DNA from: Bacteroidota bacterium
Lineage (GTDB): Bacteria; Bacteroidota; Ignavibacteria; Tepidaquicellales; Tepidaquicellaceae
Assembly: GCA_018266845.1 (NCBI GenBank)
Contig: JAFDZO010000018.1
Coordinates: 1-64,000, forward strand
DNA length: 64,000 nt
Reading direction: 5' to 3'
Part shown: positions 10,482 to 55,593 of the stretch, one piece after another
How the letters are laid out: each line of letters starts with the position of its first letter
Numbering within the stretch: position 1 is the stretch's first letter
Notes under the pieces: generated by a model
Database searches by the model: none
Told to the model about the DNA's origin: nothing
Seen by the model: only the letters and a program-made list of their open reading frames with translations
Translations under genes and position numbers: made by a program

Positions 10482-11714
10482 TTATTCGATTATCTTTGTT
10501 ACAACACCTGCGCCTACTGTACGTCCGCCTTCTCTGATAGCAAATTTCAATCCTTCTTCCATAGCGATTGGTGAAATTAACTCAACGGTTAATTTATCCA
10601 TGTTATCGCCCGGCATAACCATCTGTACATTTTCAGGTAAATGAACTACGCCTGTTACGTCAGTTGTTCTGAAGTAGAACTGTGGGCGGTAGTTTGTTGA
10701 GAACGGAGTATGTCTTCCGCCTTCTTCTTTTGAAAGAACATAAACCTGAGCTTCAAATTTTTTGTGAGGAGTAATGGAACCTGTTTTTGCAAGAACCATA
10801 CCTCTTTCGATTTCTTTCTTGTCAACACCTCTTAATAAAAGTCCGCAGTTGAAACCTGCAGTTGCTTCGTCCAATTCTTTATTGAACATTTCAGCACCTG
10901 TAACAACTGTTTTCTTCTTTGCGCCAAGACCGATAAGTTCAACTTCTTCACCGACTTTTACTTTTCCTCTTTCGATTCTTCCTGTTGCTACTGTACCTCT
11001 ACCTGTGATAGAAAATACGTCTTCAACCGGCATCAAGAATTCTTTATCAACGTCTCTCTTCGGCTCAGGAATGTAGTTATCAACTGCATCCATTAAATCG
11101 AAGATTGGTTTGTATCTTTCGTCATCTATAGGAGCATCGGATACACCGGCTTCCATAGCTTTTAAAGCAGAACCTCTGATGATTGGTACTTCATCACCGG
11201 GGAATCCGTTAGCAGTCATGATGTCTCTTAATTCTGATTCAACAACTTCAAGTAATAATTCAGCGTCTTCTTCTGTTTTTTCTTGCTCTCTGATTATATC
11301 AACTTTATTTAAGAATACTACAAGTGCAGGTACACCTACCTGTCTTGCAAGAAGGATGTGCTCTCTTGTTTGAGGCATAGCGCCGTCAGTAGCAGCAACA
11401 ACAAGGATTGCGCCGTCCATCTGAGCAGCACCGGTAATCATGTTTTTAATGTAGTCAGCGTGACCCGGGCAGTCAACGTGCGCATAGTGTCTTTTTTCTG
11501 TTTGATATTCAACGTGAGCGGTAGCAATCGTAATACCTCTTGCTTTTTCTTCTGGAGCTTTATCAATTTCATCGAATTTTTTTACTTTGCCGCCGAATTT
11601 TTTTGAAAGCGACATTGTGATTGCAGCGGTCAAAGTGGTCTTACCGTGGTCAACGTGACCGATAGTTCCGATATTGACGTGCGGCTTACTTACATCAAAT
11701 TTCTCTTTAGCCAT
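10482..11714 (-). CDS. tuf: Elongation factor Tu
   Basis: A 410-residue GTPase that carries aminoacyl-tRNA to the ribosome. G-motifs: GHVDHGKT (G1), [12 protein letters not shown] (switch I), DCPGHADY (G3), NKVD (G4) and SALKA (G5). Domains II and III follow ([34 protein letters not shown]). It is about 15 residues longer than E. coli EF-Tu, mainly from the segment [18 protein letters not shown] after SALKA. A strong Shine-Dalgarno AAAGGAG lies about 11 nt upstream. The gene follows the tRNA locus, the usual tRNA-tuf order. Confidence 0.97.
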
Positions 11715-11813: not shown

Positions 11814-11880
11814 TGGGTCAGGGAGGAATTGAACCTCAGCCTTGGCGCTAAAAGCACCACGCCCTAACCTGCTAATAATG
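11814..11880 (-). pseudogene. Truncated tRNA copy A (UUU-like anticodon arm)
   Basis: A 67-nt tandem unit sharing the 3' end of the intact tRNA upstream (GAGGTTCAATTCCTCC then CTGACCCA). It has a paired anticodon stem TGGTG/CGCCA with loop CTTTTAG (anticodon UUU). The 5' acceptor strand GGGTCAG is replaced by CATTATTA, and the D-arm is shortened (AGCAGGTTAGGGC). One T-stem pair is mismatched. It cannot form a normal cloverleaf, so it is called a tRNA fragment. Confidence 0.7.
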
Positions 11881-11948
11881 TGGGTCAGGGAGGAATTGAA
11901 CCTCCTGCCTTGACGCTAAAAGCGCCACGCCCTAACCTGCTAATAATG
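11881..11948 (-). pseudogene. Truncated tRNA copy B (UUU-like anticodon arm)
   Basis: A 68-nt tandem duplicate of copy A with the same missing 5' acceptor strand and shortened D-arm. The anticodon stem is TGGCG/CGTCA with loop CTTTTAG, and the T-arm GGAGG/CCTCC is intact. It directly abuts the intact tRNA gene. Confidence 0.7.
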
Positions 11949-12022
11949 TGGGTCAGGGAGGAATTGAACCTCCCACCTCGTGCTTATAAGGCACGCGCTC
12001 TAACCATCTGAGCTACTGACCC
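11949..12022 (-). tRNA. tRNA-Ile (anticodon UAU)
   Basis: 74 nt with a complete cloverleaf: acceptor GGGTCAG/CTGACCC with discriminator A, D-stem GCTC/GAGC, anticodon stem CGTGC/GCACG, loop CTTATAA and T-stem GGAGG/CCTCC. The loop gives anticodon UAU (antisense of 11986-11988), which would read AUA. The body is that of tRNA-Ile; a GAU version would differ by one base. UAU is rare in bacteria, which normally decode AUA with lysidine-modified CAU. CCA is not encoded. It lies upstream of tuf. Confidence 0.85.
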
Positions 12023-12152
12023 AGACCGGAAACTTCATATCCGGAAAACTTTTCTTAGATATGAAATTTTATAGAGTGTTTATCGTGTCTAATCTACGAG
12101 TTCTATACCGATTTTACTCAGCACTGACCCTATTAACTTATTTTAAAGAACT
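12001..12152 (-). repeat. Duplicated tRNA 5' part plus leader, copy 1
   Basis: Nearly identical to 12437-12584. The shared part covers the tRNA 5' end (acceptor and D-arm) and about 120 nt upstream. Inside the leader a hairpin TTCATATC/GATATGAA (about 12034-12065) occupies the place of a different-sequence hairpin in copy 2. Confidence 0.8.
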
Positions 12153-12156
12153 TTAT

Positions 12157-12396
12157 TTATTTATCTAAAGAATCTAAAAATCTTTTACAACCTCTTGCTT
12201 TAATTTTATTTTCCAATTTTAAAGCATCTGTTTTATTTTCAAATTCAAATGATTTTACCAATTTCCAATCTCGAGCTTTTCTTGTAAAATTTGTTTTACC
12301 TGAATTATGCTCTTTGATTCGGTTGTGAACATCGGAAGTGGAACCTGCATAATATTTCCCAACAGTTTCGCTGTAAAGTATATATGGATAAAACAA
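12157..12396 (-). CDS. GIY-YIG nuclease-domain protein embedded in the tRNA locus
   Basis: A 79-residue single-domain GIY-YIG protein if it starts at the TTG at 12396 (MFYPYILYS), the usual start for this family. A GTG at 12432 inside a tRNA-like anticodon arm would add 12 residues. Visible motifs are YILYS (GIY equivalent), KYYAGSTSDVHNRIKEHNSG (YIG equivalent AGS, catalytic Arg after VHN) and a Glu in DALKLENKIK. Such small proteins (UvrC N-terminal-like) are common in Bacteroidetes and their role is mostly unknown. The gene follows a truncated tRNA in the same strand and lies between two copies of a duplicated leader. Confidence 0.8.
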   Translation of the reverse strand: MFYPYILYSETVGKYYAGSTSDVHNRIKEHNSGKTNFTRKARDWKLVKSFEFENKTDALKLENKIKARGCKRFLDSLDK

Positions 12397-12402
12397 ATTT
12401 TC

Positions 12403-12458
12403 AGCCTCCCGCCTTGGCGCTGAAAGCGCCACGCTCTAACCATCTGAGCTACTGACCC
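12403..12458 (-). pseudogene. Truncated tRNA copy C (5' part, UUC-like anticodon arm)
   Basis: Acceptor 5' strand GGGTCAG and the D-arm are identical to tRNA-Ile(UAU), followed by a perfect anticodon stem TGGCG/CGCCA with loop CTTTCAG (anticodon UUC) and GGGAGG as the 5' T-stem strand. There the similarity stops and the GIY-YIG reading frame begins. The T-loop and 3' acceptor are absent, so it cannot be a working tRNA. Confidence 0.7.
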
Positions 12459-12584
12459 AGACCGGAAACTTCATCCCGACTTTGTCGGGATGAAATTTTA
12501 TAGAGTGTTTATCGTGTCTAATCTACGAGTTCTATGCCGATTTTACTCAGCACTGACCCTATTAACTTATTTTAAAGAACTTTT
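12437..12584 (-). repeat. Duplicated tRNA 5' part plus leader, copy 2
   Basis: Second copy of 12001-12152. The hairpin in the leader is TTCATCCCGAC/GTCGGGATGAA (12470-12494), longer than and different from that of copy 1, while the surrounding about 95 nt differ at one or two positions only. Confidence 0.8.
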
Positions 12585-12671: not shown

Positions 12672-14765
12672 TTACGCTACTGCTTCTTTGCCTTTTACTT
12701 TCTCAACAATTTGCTCCTGAATTGACTTTGGAGCTTCATCGTAATGAGCAAACTGCATTGTGTAAATAGCGCGTCCTTGTGTCATACTTCTCAATTGTGT
12801 TGCATAACCGAACATCTCTGAAAGCGGAACAGATGCTTTAATTACCTGCGCATCATTTCTTTGAGACATACCTTCGATTTTACCTCTTCTTGAACTTAAA
12901 TCACCCATCACGTCACCCATGTATTCATCGGGAGTTACAACTTCAACATCCATAATCGGCTCAAGCAATACAGGATTAGCTTTTCTGGCAGCTTCTTTGA
13001 ATGCCATTGAACCTGCTATCTTAAACGCCATTTCTGACGAGTCAACATCGTGATACGAGCCGTCGAACAATCTTACCTTAATATCTTCAACCGGGTATCC
13101 CGCTAAAACACCGTTCTTCATTGCTTCTTCTATACCTTCAGAAACCGGCTTGATAAATTCCTTCGGAATTACACCGCCGACAATCGCGTTTTCAAAGATA
13201 AATCCTTTTCCTTTTTCGTTCGGCTCAACATCAATCCACACATGCCCGAACTGACCTTTACCGCCCGATTGCCTTACGAATTTACCTTCCTGAGTAACTT
13301 TCTTCTTAATTGTTTCTTTATAAGCAACCTGAGGCTTACCAACGTTTGCATCAACTTTAAATTCTCTCTTCAACCTGTCAACAATAATTTCCAAGTGAAG
13401 CTCACCCATACCTGCAATAAGCGTCTGACCTGTTTCTTCGTTTGAAGACACTCTGAATGTCGGGTCCTCATCGGAAAGTTTTCCGAGTGATTCACCAAGC
13501 TTATCCTGGTCAGCTTTTGTTTTCGGCTCGATTGCAATTGAGATAACCGGCTCAGGGAAAGTAATTTTCTCAAGAATAATCGGATCGCTTTCATCTGAAA
13601 GTGTATCGCCTGTCTTTGTAAATTTCAAACCAACTGCCGCCGCTATATCACCTGCATATACTTCTTTTATATCTTCCCTGCTGTTTGCGTGCATCTGAAG
13701 AAGTCTCGAAAATCTTTCTTTCTTGCCTGCGTTTGAATTAAACACATAGCTTCCTGCATCTGCTTTACCCGAATAGACTCTGAAGAAGGTTAATTTACCT
13801 ACATAAGGGTCTGTCATAATTTTGAAAGCTAAAGCAGAAAACTTTTCATCATCGGCAACTCTTCTGATAATATGGTCATCTGTGTGTAAGTGATGACCTT
13901 CAATCTCGCCAATATCTAACGGAGAAGGAAGAAGCTCAACAACTTTATCCAATAAATTTTGTACACCTTTATTTTTGAACGAAGAACCGCAGATAACAGG
14001 AACAATTTTAATTTCAATAGTTGCCCTTCTTAATACATCAAGAATTTCTTTTTCAGTAATCTCTTCGCCATTAAGATATTTTTCAATCAAATGGTCATCA
14101 ACATCTGCAACTGCCTCAAGCAGCTGCTGCCTTGCTTCTTCTGCCTGCGCTCTAAGGGATTCAGGAATCTCAACGTCATCATACGTCTGACCCATTGTTT
14201 CAGCATTGAACACTCTTGCCTTCATTGTGATTAAATCAATAATGCCGTTGAACATATCACCTTCTCCCATAGGAAGAGTGATAGGCACTGCATTAGCTTT
14301 TAATCTGTCTTTCATCATCTGGATAGCGTGAGCAAAGTTTGCGCCTGTTCTATCCATCTTGTTCACGAATGCAATTCTCGGCACTTTATACTTATCCATC
14401 TGTCTCCAAACGGTTTCAGACTGAGGCTCTACGCCGCCGACCGAGCAGAACAACGCAACTGCGCCGTCGAGAACTCTAAGCGAGCGCTCTACTTCCGCAG
14501 TAAAGTCAACGTGCCCGGGAGTATCAATAATATTAATTCTGTGTTTATTCCAGAAACATGTTGTAGCAGCAGAAGTAATTGTAATACCTCTTTCTTTTTC
14601 CTGCTCCATCCAGTCCATAGTTGCAGCGCCTTCATGCACTTCACCGATTCTGTGTGAACGTCCTGTATAATACAGTATTCTTTCTGTTGTTGTTGTTTTA
14701 CCGGCGTCAATGTGAGCACTGATACCGATATTTCTTGTCATTTCTAAGGATATTTGCCTTGCCAT
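12672..14765 (-). CDS. fusA: Elongation factor G
   Basis: A 697-residue translocase GTPase. G1 [10 protein letters not shown], switch [13 protein letters not shown]3 DTPGHVDF, G4 NKMDR, domain II from about residue 290, and domains III-V ([21 protein letters not shown]-like [24 protein letters not shown]). Length and motifs fit the translocation-competent EF-G. It is followed by the tRNA locus and tuf and preceded by rpsG, the standard str-operon order. Confidence 0.97.
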
Positions 14766-55165: not shown

Positions 55166-55271
55166 AAAACTCCTCCCTTGAGGGAAGTGTCGAGCCGAAG
55201 GCGAGACGGCGGGTGTTCCTTAAAACACCCCTCCTCCCGATAAATCGGGATACTCCCCTAAAGTGGAGAGT
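55166..55271 (+). repeat. Multi-hairpin dispersed repeat, copy 2
   Basis: Same order of stems as 6661-6764. The internal stem is CCCGAT/ATCGGG, where copy 1 has GACC/GGTC and copy 3 CCGACC/GGTCGG, i.e. paired changes. Confidence 0.75.
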
Positions 55272-55494: not shown

Positions 55495-55593
55495 GGCAGA
55501 AAAATCCTCGTTCCTATGCGGAATTTATCCCGATGTAATCGGGAGCATCCAAGCGAGTATTCCTTATATAAAACTTCACAATCATTTAATTTG

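Follow-up and report, generated by a model that had tools for sequence, protein, structure and literature searches.

In the Bacteroidota bacterium assembly GCA_018266845.1, we examined a 64-kb stretch of contig JAFDZO010000018.1 (positions 1-64,000; genome label G000), hereafter the window, in which the spacer between fusA and tuf holds an intact tRNA gene, three partial copies of it, a duplicated leader, and a small GIY-YIG nuclease gene. The ORF list, the sequence itself, and a tRNA search place all features of the locus on the minus strand, running from fusA to tuf. In the order of transcription, they are:

12672..14765, minus: fusA (EF-G), the upstream neighbour (ORF; the fusA-tRNA-tuf order is conserved)
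12459..12583, minus: leader copy 1, with a boxA-like GTTCTTTAAA at 12571-12580 and its hairpin swapped for TCCCGAC..GTCGGGA at 12474-12490, a member of a palindrome family in the genome
12400..12458, minus: tRNA-Ile 5' fragment, tRNA positions 1-59, ending in the T-arm (80% identity, E = 3e-10; Rfam tRNA 29.5 bits)
12415-12431, minus: hairpin TGGCGCTTTCAGCGCCA in place of the anticodon arm of the 5' fragment (alignment)
12405..12410, minus: GGGAGG of the T-stem of the 5' fragment, the likely Shine-Dalgarno sequence of the nuclease gene (sequence; 8 nt before TTG)
12157..12396, minus: GIY-YIG nuclease gene, 79 aa from TTG (PF01541, E = 2e-14; alignment; profile match to UPF0213 1zg2 and SLX1)
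12023..12154, minus: leader copy 2, directly before the intact tRNA, with a boxA-like GTTCTTTAAA at 12142-12151 and the native hairpin retained (99% identical to copy 1 over 94 nt; conserved in relatives)
11948..12022, minus: intact tRNA-Ile, anticodon UAU (ARAGORN; Rfam 72.7 bits; 99-100% identical in many relatives)
11881..11939, minus: tRNA 3' fragment A, positions 18-75, with altered anticodon arm (78% identity, E = 3e-10; Rfam tRNA 24.0 bits)
11814..11871, minus: tRNA 3' fragment B, positions 18-75, with altered anticodon arm (78% identity, E = 2e-9; Rfam tRNA 22.1 bits)
10482..11714, minus: tuf (EF-Tu), the downstream neighbour (ORF; conserved order)

ARAGORN recognized tRNA-Ile(UAU) as the single intact tRNA at the locus, and the Rfam tRNA model independently recovered all three fragments, at 29.5, 24.0, and 22.1 bits versus 72.7 for the intact gene. 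The two 3' fragments recur at a spacing of 67-68 nt. An earlier sequence-only reading of this stretch had described the same arrangement, namely an intact tRNA, two 3' copies, one 5' copy ending in the T-arm, and a GIY-YIG gene, and each of these was recovered where it had been placed. It had also held that the leader and the 5' part of the tRNA are duplicated on either side of the nuclease gene; the leader copies indeed share all but one of 94 nt, and the duplicated stretch also takes in the first 27 nt of the tRNA. Only the leader hairpin and the anticodon arm set the duplicated parts sharply apart, the latter reading TGGCGC..GCGCCA in the 5' fragment versus CGTGC..GCACG in the intact gene in our alignment. 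The tRNA fragments at the locus are altered rather than plain copies, their anticodon arm having been exchanged for the TGGCGC..GCGCCA hairpin.

The leader preceding tRNA-Ile is conserved in two families: an alignment of 18 leaders shows the boxA-like GTTCTTTAAA and an invariant GGGTCA, followed by CTCGTCAATCAGACAC, CTCTATAAAA, and TTTCC. The leader matched no Rfam family, and its consensus fold is weak (8 pairs). Matches of the spacer to the Rfam families Plastid-ycf2 and mascRNA were discarded as sub-cut-off hits overlapping tRNA sequence. The tRNA-Ile(UAU) at this site, which reads AUA directly, is kept across the order and stands in for the usual CAU tRNA of bacteria, which needs lysidine.

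The window protein scored 54 bits against PF01541 (curated cut-off 22.6 bits; E = 2e-14) and aligns with the conserved Tyr, Tyr-Gly, Arg, His-Asn, and Glu of the family; in a 13-member alignment that includes it, the active-site Tyr, Tyr-Gly, Arg, and Glu form invariant columns. Judged by domain and active-site residues, it belongs to the GIY-YIG nuclease superfamily and is predicted to cleave DNA. Its nearest solved structures by profile are UPF0213 BH0048 (1zg2, E = 1e-15) and SLX1, with I-TevI only marginal, and the profile matches place it apparently closest to the UPF0213/SLX1 proteins (uncharacterised or structure-specific nucleases) rather than to SegB or I-TevI. The phage endonuclease profile phrog_681 (PHROG) matched the window protein weakly (E = 7e-4) and one relative not at all. 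PADLOC likewise returned only weak partial matches (E = 0.002). The open frame extends to a GTG at 12432, inside the tRNA fragment, and the usual start of the family, M-F/Y-Y-x-Y-I, coincides with the TTG at 12396-12394, the likelier start codon of the two. The T-stem GGGAGG lies 8 nt before this TTG, and the same T-stem lies ~10 nt before an ATG in three relatives (G030, G032, and G039); the T-stem of the tRNA may thereby double as the ribosome-binding site of the nuclease gene.

Within the taxonomic order, the gene order fusA-tRNA-Ile(UAU)-tuf is conserved, and 40 order-level loci, this genome counted in, could be assessed. The sequence-only reading had proposed that the spacers of relatives would disclose the pre-insertion state, and 31 of the 40 loci do so, carrying a single tRNA and nothing else, with no tRNA fragments. 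Their spacers measure 135-502 nt (where both ends were measurable) versus 773-1008 nt in occupied loci. A complete nuclease gene is found at five of the 40, namely in this genome, in its sister species G001, and in G030, G032, and G039 of another family. The arrangement that the same reading had named as contrary to insertion, with the same nuclease beside fusA in all relatives and no fragments, is not what these loci show. Four further loci retain remnants: a GIY tail in G029, a 5' fragment with an internally deleted GIY gene in G033 (its tail piece scoring above all 1000 shuffles and its front piece above 998), and a 3' fragment in each of G036 and G041. Occupied and scarred alleles are patchily distributed even within one genus (g17), and tRNA fragments at fusA-tuf are confined to nuclease-bearing loci or to genomes related to such loci. 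The sister species G001 carries the mirror arrangement: its nuclease gene lies between the intact tRNA upstream and a 3' fragment downstream, which likewise bears the TGGCGC..GCGCCA arm, and a TAG in the D-loop of that fragment serves as the stop codon of the nuclease gene. The downstream 3' fragments of the window are probably traces of other, mirror-type insertions as in G001, and not of the same event as its 5' fragment.

A second site with both occupied and empty alleles is the tRNA-Ala gene of Flavobacterium. Downstream of tRNA-Ala, Flavobacterium sp. 11 (L207) has, in this order, a terminator, the nuclease gene, a palindrome, a 31-nt copy of the tRNA 3' end, and the native terminator, whereas in the empty genome G267 a single tRNA-Ala is contiguous with the native terminator, the flanks of the two being 85-87% identical. 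The position of the native terminator, now beyond the 31-nt 3' copy, shows that the insertion, of ~0.36 kb, took place inside the tRNA-Ala gene. From this comparison, the 3' part of the working tRNA-Ala in L207 would derive either from the element or from a duplication. In L289, T-stem variants are swapped between two tRNA copies, as expected from recombination inside the tRNA. Some Flavobacterium genomes (L204, 1900-2320; L288; L289) have no intact tRNA-Ala(GGC) left at the locus, where the nuclease gene is bordered by 3' fragments alone.

To place these loci in a wider context, we collected small GIY-YIG genes from 59 class-level relatives, phylum-wide genomes, and named genomes, using L039 as the query of the genome-wide scan for relatives, and mapped them relative to ARAGORN tRNAs. 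The 236 distinct domains fall into 147 of tRNA type and a sister clade of 89. A tRNA lies within 500 nt of 113 of the 147 tRNA-type genes versus 1 of the 89 in the sister clade; by our own estimate, from ~50 tRNA genes in 3.5 Mb, 1-2% of random sites would lie that close. A further 18 tRNA-type genes are <500 nt from the end of the fetched stretch, mostly at contig ends. Three of the remaining 16 are inner members of arrays; also among these 16, L061, L080, L083, and L204 show tRNA remnants or tRNA-like matches, L099, L143, and L186 have the neighbours described below (an apparently intron-bearing tRNA, RNase P RNA, and a 5' copy of a protein gene, respectively), and for L047 and L223 we found no explanation of their location. 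In related bacteria, the arrangement recurs at >100 tRNA genes, and the nuclease gene and tRNA share one strand in all 121 pairs found, with genes downstream of a tRNA starting at a median of 49 nt past it. Genes of the tRNA-nested GIY-YIG kind also turned up in contigs titled Candidatus Wolfebacteria (L228, Arg) and Candidatus Peribacteria (L250, Leu) and in a Nitrospira MAG (L213, Asn). A phage or plasmid origin was rejected, as the phage collection yielded only two weak hits to the bacterial gene family and the plasmid collection a single hit, in a 2.6 Mb record.

The loci come in two mirror forms. The commoner form A consists of a complete tRNA, the nuclease gene, and a tRNA 3' part; form B, seen in the window, has a promoter or leader and a tRNA 5' part before the nuclease gene and a second leader with the complete tRNA after it. 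Of 52 fragments upstream of the intact tRNA, 42 begin at tRNA position 3 or before and one extends to the 3' end, many having their ends near the T-loop; of 95 fragments downstream of it, 74 extend to the 3' end and three begin at position 3 or before. The nuclease gene is bracketed by direct repeats at 77% of tRNA-type sites (95 of 123), compared with 3% (13 of 382) for control positions taken from the same loci. Both forms build tandem arrays, with five 450-nt units after an intact tRNA-Leu and five 365-nt units after a tRNA-Met on the downstream side, and three 317-nt units before a tRNA-Pro and three 350-nt units before a tRNA-Arg on the upstream side. The genome of the window holds a second locus at tRNA-Pro(CGG) (L002, 1254-1790, near the end of contig C3, with the tRNA partly masked as N), where tRNA-Pro(CGG), the nuclease gene, and a 3' fragment come after two tRNA-Pro 5' fragments, both of which stop at the T-loop GGTTCA. 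An assembly error, which the sequence-only reading had allowed for, was rejected as unlikely because layout variants and scars occur independently at the fusA-tuf loci of other genomes and the general pattern recurs in cultured isolates and single-contig genomes.

On the GIY tree, tRNA isotype changes 37 times versus 77-90 times when shuffled (23 versus 44-54 for the class set alone), and host family changes 48 times versus 61-71, a weaker clustering; the tree rests on 75 columns, with many unresolved forks, so that single forks are not to be trusted. As isotype clusters more strongly than host family, the nuclease lineages follow the tRNA more than the host, the pattern that target-specific homing would predict.

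The fragments carry a further recurrent feature. The palindromes TCCCGA..TCGGGA, TCCGCC..GGCGGA, and TGGCGC..GCGCCA replace the anticodon arm of fragments; elsewhere the palindrome sits in the T-arm (Asp) or the anticodon loop (Met and Asn), and its place looks constant within each isotype lineage. TCCCGAN3-9TCGGGA is dispersed in the genome of the window, at 24 sites versus one for the reversed control (among them 12474-12490, 55235-55250, and 55528-55544), and TGGCGC..GCGCCA occurs nowhere else in that genome. Simple homing would not lead one to expect palindromes in place of the anticodon arm; possible roles are self-protection from the enzyme of the element, prevention of collapse by recombination, or hairpin-guided targeting.

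A few tRNA-type genes lie instead near tmRNA or beside RNase P RNA; in L143, ~20 nt separate the end of the small GIY-YIG gene from the RNase P RNA gene downstream, which has the same orientation. In L186, the form-B layout recurs with a protein-coding gene as its site: the small nuclease gene separates the start of a sugar-nucleotide dehydratase-like gene, beginning MNILVTGGAGFIGS, from a copy of its 5' part. Two kinds of invader apparently share one tRNA in L099, where a group I intron, seemingly interrupting the tRNA gene, sits immediately upstream of a freestanding GIY-YIG gene, and a piece of the tRNA 3' part comes after that gene. Members of the sister clade (L004, L101, L121, L123, L131, L138, L142, L168, L172, L176, L184, and L233) lie away from tRNAs and are flanked by REP-like repeats, such as CCTTCGACAAGCTCAGGGTGACA and ATTGCGAGGAGCGAAGCGACGAAGCAATC; direct repeats were found at 49 of 86 sister-clade sites versus 13 of 382 control sites.

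We interpret the locus as a minimal mobile element, that is, a freestanding homing-type GIY-YIG gene of ~80 codons that resides in tRNA genes, has no intron, and keeps the host gene through partial duplication of its target, a reading to which we assign a probability of about 0.7. The nuclease would cut the empty allele of its own tRNA gene, and repair would copy the nuclease gene in together with the flanking tRNA part, rebuilding an intact tRNA; through the repeats between the parts, the unit would afterwards grow into tandem arrays or collapse to orphan fragments. In the window, the tRNA piece would also serve the nuclease gene by holding GGGAGG at Shine-Dalgarno distance from the TTG. The gene is freestanding, its ORF lying between partial tRNA copies with no Rfam intron match at the window locus, and occupied and empty alleles of one site are present both at fusA-tuf and at the Flavobacterium tRNA-Ala. 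An element-borne part that re-forms the gene while the native part is displaced is seen in the Flavobacterium pair; for the window, which has the mirror form, the same follows by comparison only. The sequence-only reading had envisaged an insertion that cut a tRNA gene and a duplicated leader that restored a working copy: the insertion and the restoration are supported by the empty relatives and the Flavobacterium pair, and the cut by the nuclease itself is what we infer. Fragments have altered anticodon arms, yet the intact tRNA in occupied loci is unchanged; if the enzyme recognized nothing beyond the tRNA, the donor would therefore lack protection. Where the fragments end differs from isotype to isotype (D-arm to T-loop), so that no single cut site is indicated. 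More tentatively, at somewhat below even odds, the loci may represent a widespread undescribed class of UPF0213/SLX1-like elements of ~80 codons in tRNA genes of Bacteroidota and some others, with one isotype per lineage, a partial copy in place of an intron, and spare copies marked with palindromes; the sister clade may do likewise at REP-like palindromic repeats.

Part of this evidence could also arise through structure-guided transposition instead of homing, in which an SLX1/UPF0213-like nuclease acts on hairpin-forming DNA (tRNA, tmRNA, and RNase P RNA genes, or REP-like palindromes) and the palindromes of the fragments belong to the element. The best profile matches to UPF0213 and SLX1, the isotype-constant places of the palindromes, the exceptions near tmRNA or beside RNase P RNA, and the REP-like flanks of the sister clade are all in keeping with it. 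We nevertheless hold it unlikely: isotype-specific lineages suggest recognition of sequence, TGGCGC..GCGCCA is found nowhere else in the genome, and mobility of the palindromes is an assumption of this explanation. It is also quite improbable that the nuclease gene is a passenger, having landed by chance in a spare copy that tolerates insertion and hitchhiking on tRNAs that duplicate in tandem by replication slippage or unequal exchange. Fragment arrays with no intervening nuclease gene do exist beside many tRNAs, and repeat-mediated expansion and collapse require no nuclease. However, among small GIY-YIG genes only the tRNA-type set sits at tRNAs, always on one strand, and its lineages follow isotype; the 31 single-tRNA fusA-tuf relatives are fragment-free, with fragments appearing only alongside the nuclease or in related genomes; and flanking direct repeats are also present at a non-tRNA target such as L186.

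A domesticated nuclease within a host system, with tRNA-like fragments acting as decoys or regulators (of tuf or of tRNA-cleaving toxins), appears very improbable. The strong, repeatedly chosen hairpins of the altered fragments, the site within a translation operon, and the PADLOC matches, weak and partial as they are, could be taken in its favour; the patchy presence, the decayed copies, the loss within a genus, and the many unrelated isotypes run counter to it, as do those Flavobacterium genomes in which the intact tRNA-Ala(GGC) is lost from the locus but the nuclease gene is kept. Hardly credible, finally, are the two classical alternatives, an element inserted by an integrase into a tRNA attachment site and a nuclease-bearing group I intron. 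Although tRNA 3' ends are the usual attachment sites and L099 does have a group I intron just upstream of its nuclease gene, the 317-450 nt units lack an integrase and have the GIY-YIG gene as their sole ORF, and both mirror forms flank complete tRNA genes. At the window locus itself, an integrase or intron was rejected, as both are absent from the ORF list and the Rfam matches, respectively.

Homing endonuclease genes in essential genes usually depend on a self-splicing intron or intein. The homing-type element proposed here appears to be a selfish gene that persists in tRNA genes through partial gene duplication, in chromosomes, beyond phages or mitochondria. If so, it would offer a very small, testable homing system, would account for families of tRNA pseudogene fragments and for small GIY-YIG genes annotated as 'hypothetical', and would be a source of tRNA gene loss and copy-number change. 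For annotation, it matters that the open frames of these nuclease genes continue into tRNA sequence on one side or both and that contig breaks are frequent there. Intron-free homing-type genes are already known; their setting in bacterial chromosomal tRNA genes is apparently undescribed, in that we found no description of bacterial tRNA-nested GIY-YIG genes in the open literature, which is weak evidence given that subscription papers lay mostly outside the search.

UPF0213/YhbQ-type and SLX1 proteins (1zg2, 7cq2) have this small GIY-YIG domain in common with the window protein, down to the conserved Tyr, Arg, His, and Glu, and are not known to be mobile or linked to tRNA genes. Integrative elements at tRNA genes resemble the present units in that the host tRNA is kept through an element-borne copy of one part, but the GIY-YIG units lack an integrase, measure ~0.3-0.45 kb, and are repeated. 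The closest known systems appear to be phage SegB and the mobile ORFs of fungal mitochondria, which we regard as parallels, neither of them proof of the mechanism here. SegB of T4 and T6 is a freestanding GIY-YIG homing endonuclease in the tRNA cluster (Brok-Volchanskaya et al. 2008, as cited in PMC13096335). According to the latter report, SegB cuts inside tRNA genes at the motif RAWTSGAAC, occurs together with tRNAs in phage genomes, and multiplies tRNA-segB units in tandem through recombination (PMC13096335); on the other strand, that motif would by our own reading be T-loop sequence. The bacterial genes share with SegB the freestanding GIY-YIG gene adjoining tRNA genes of many isotypes, and the same report adds cutting, tandem tRNA-nuclease amplification, and self-promoted inheritance on the side of SegB (PMC13096335). 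SegB differs in being phage-borne and larger, whereas the bacterial genes have ~80 codons, are UPF0213/SLX1-like, and are nearly absent from the phage collection. The bacterial loci further have partial tRNA copies on both sides, of which the portion of the SegB report consulted makes no mention, and isotype-specific lineages, whereas SegB is reported to have no isotype preference (PMC13096335). In fungal mitochondria, mobile ORFs with duplicated gene ends are described in atp6 of Allomyces and in atp6, atp9, cox2, and nad3 of Glomus (PMC3630166). There, too, an endonuclease ORF sits intron-free in an essential gene, and the element brings a replacement 3' part while the native part is displaced downstream, matching form A and the Flavobacterium pair, although the hosts are mitochondrial protein genes and the enzymes mostly LAGLIDADG, with one GIY-YIG (PMC3630166). 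The bacterial element, in contrast, occupies chromosomal tRNA genes, builds tandem arrays, and also exists in the mirror form B, with a duplicated promoter and 5' part.
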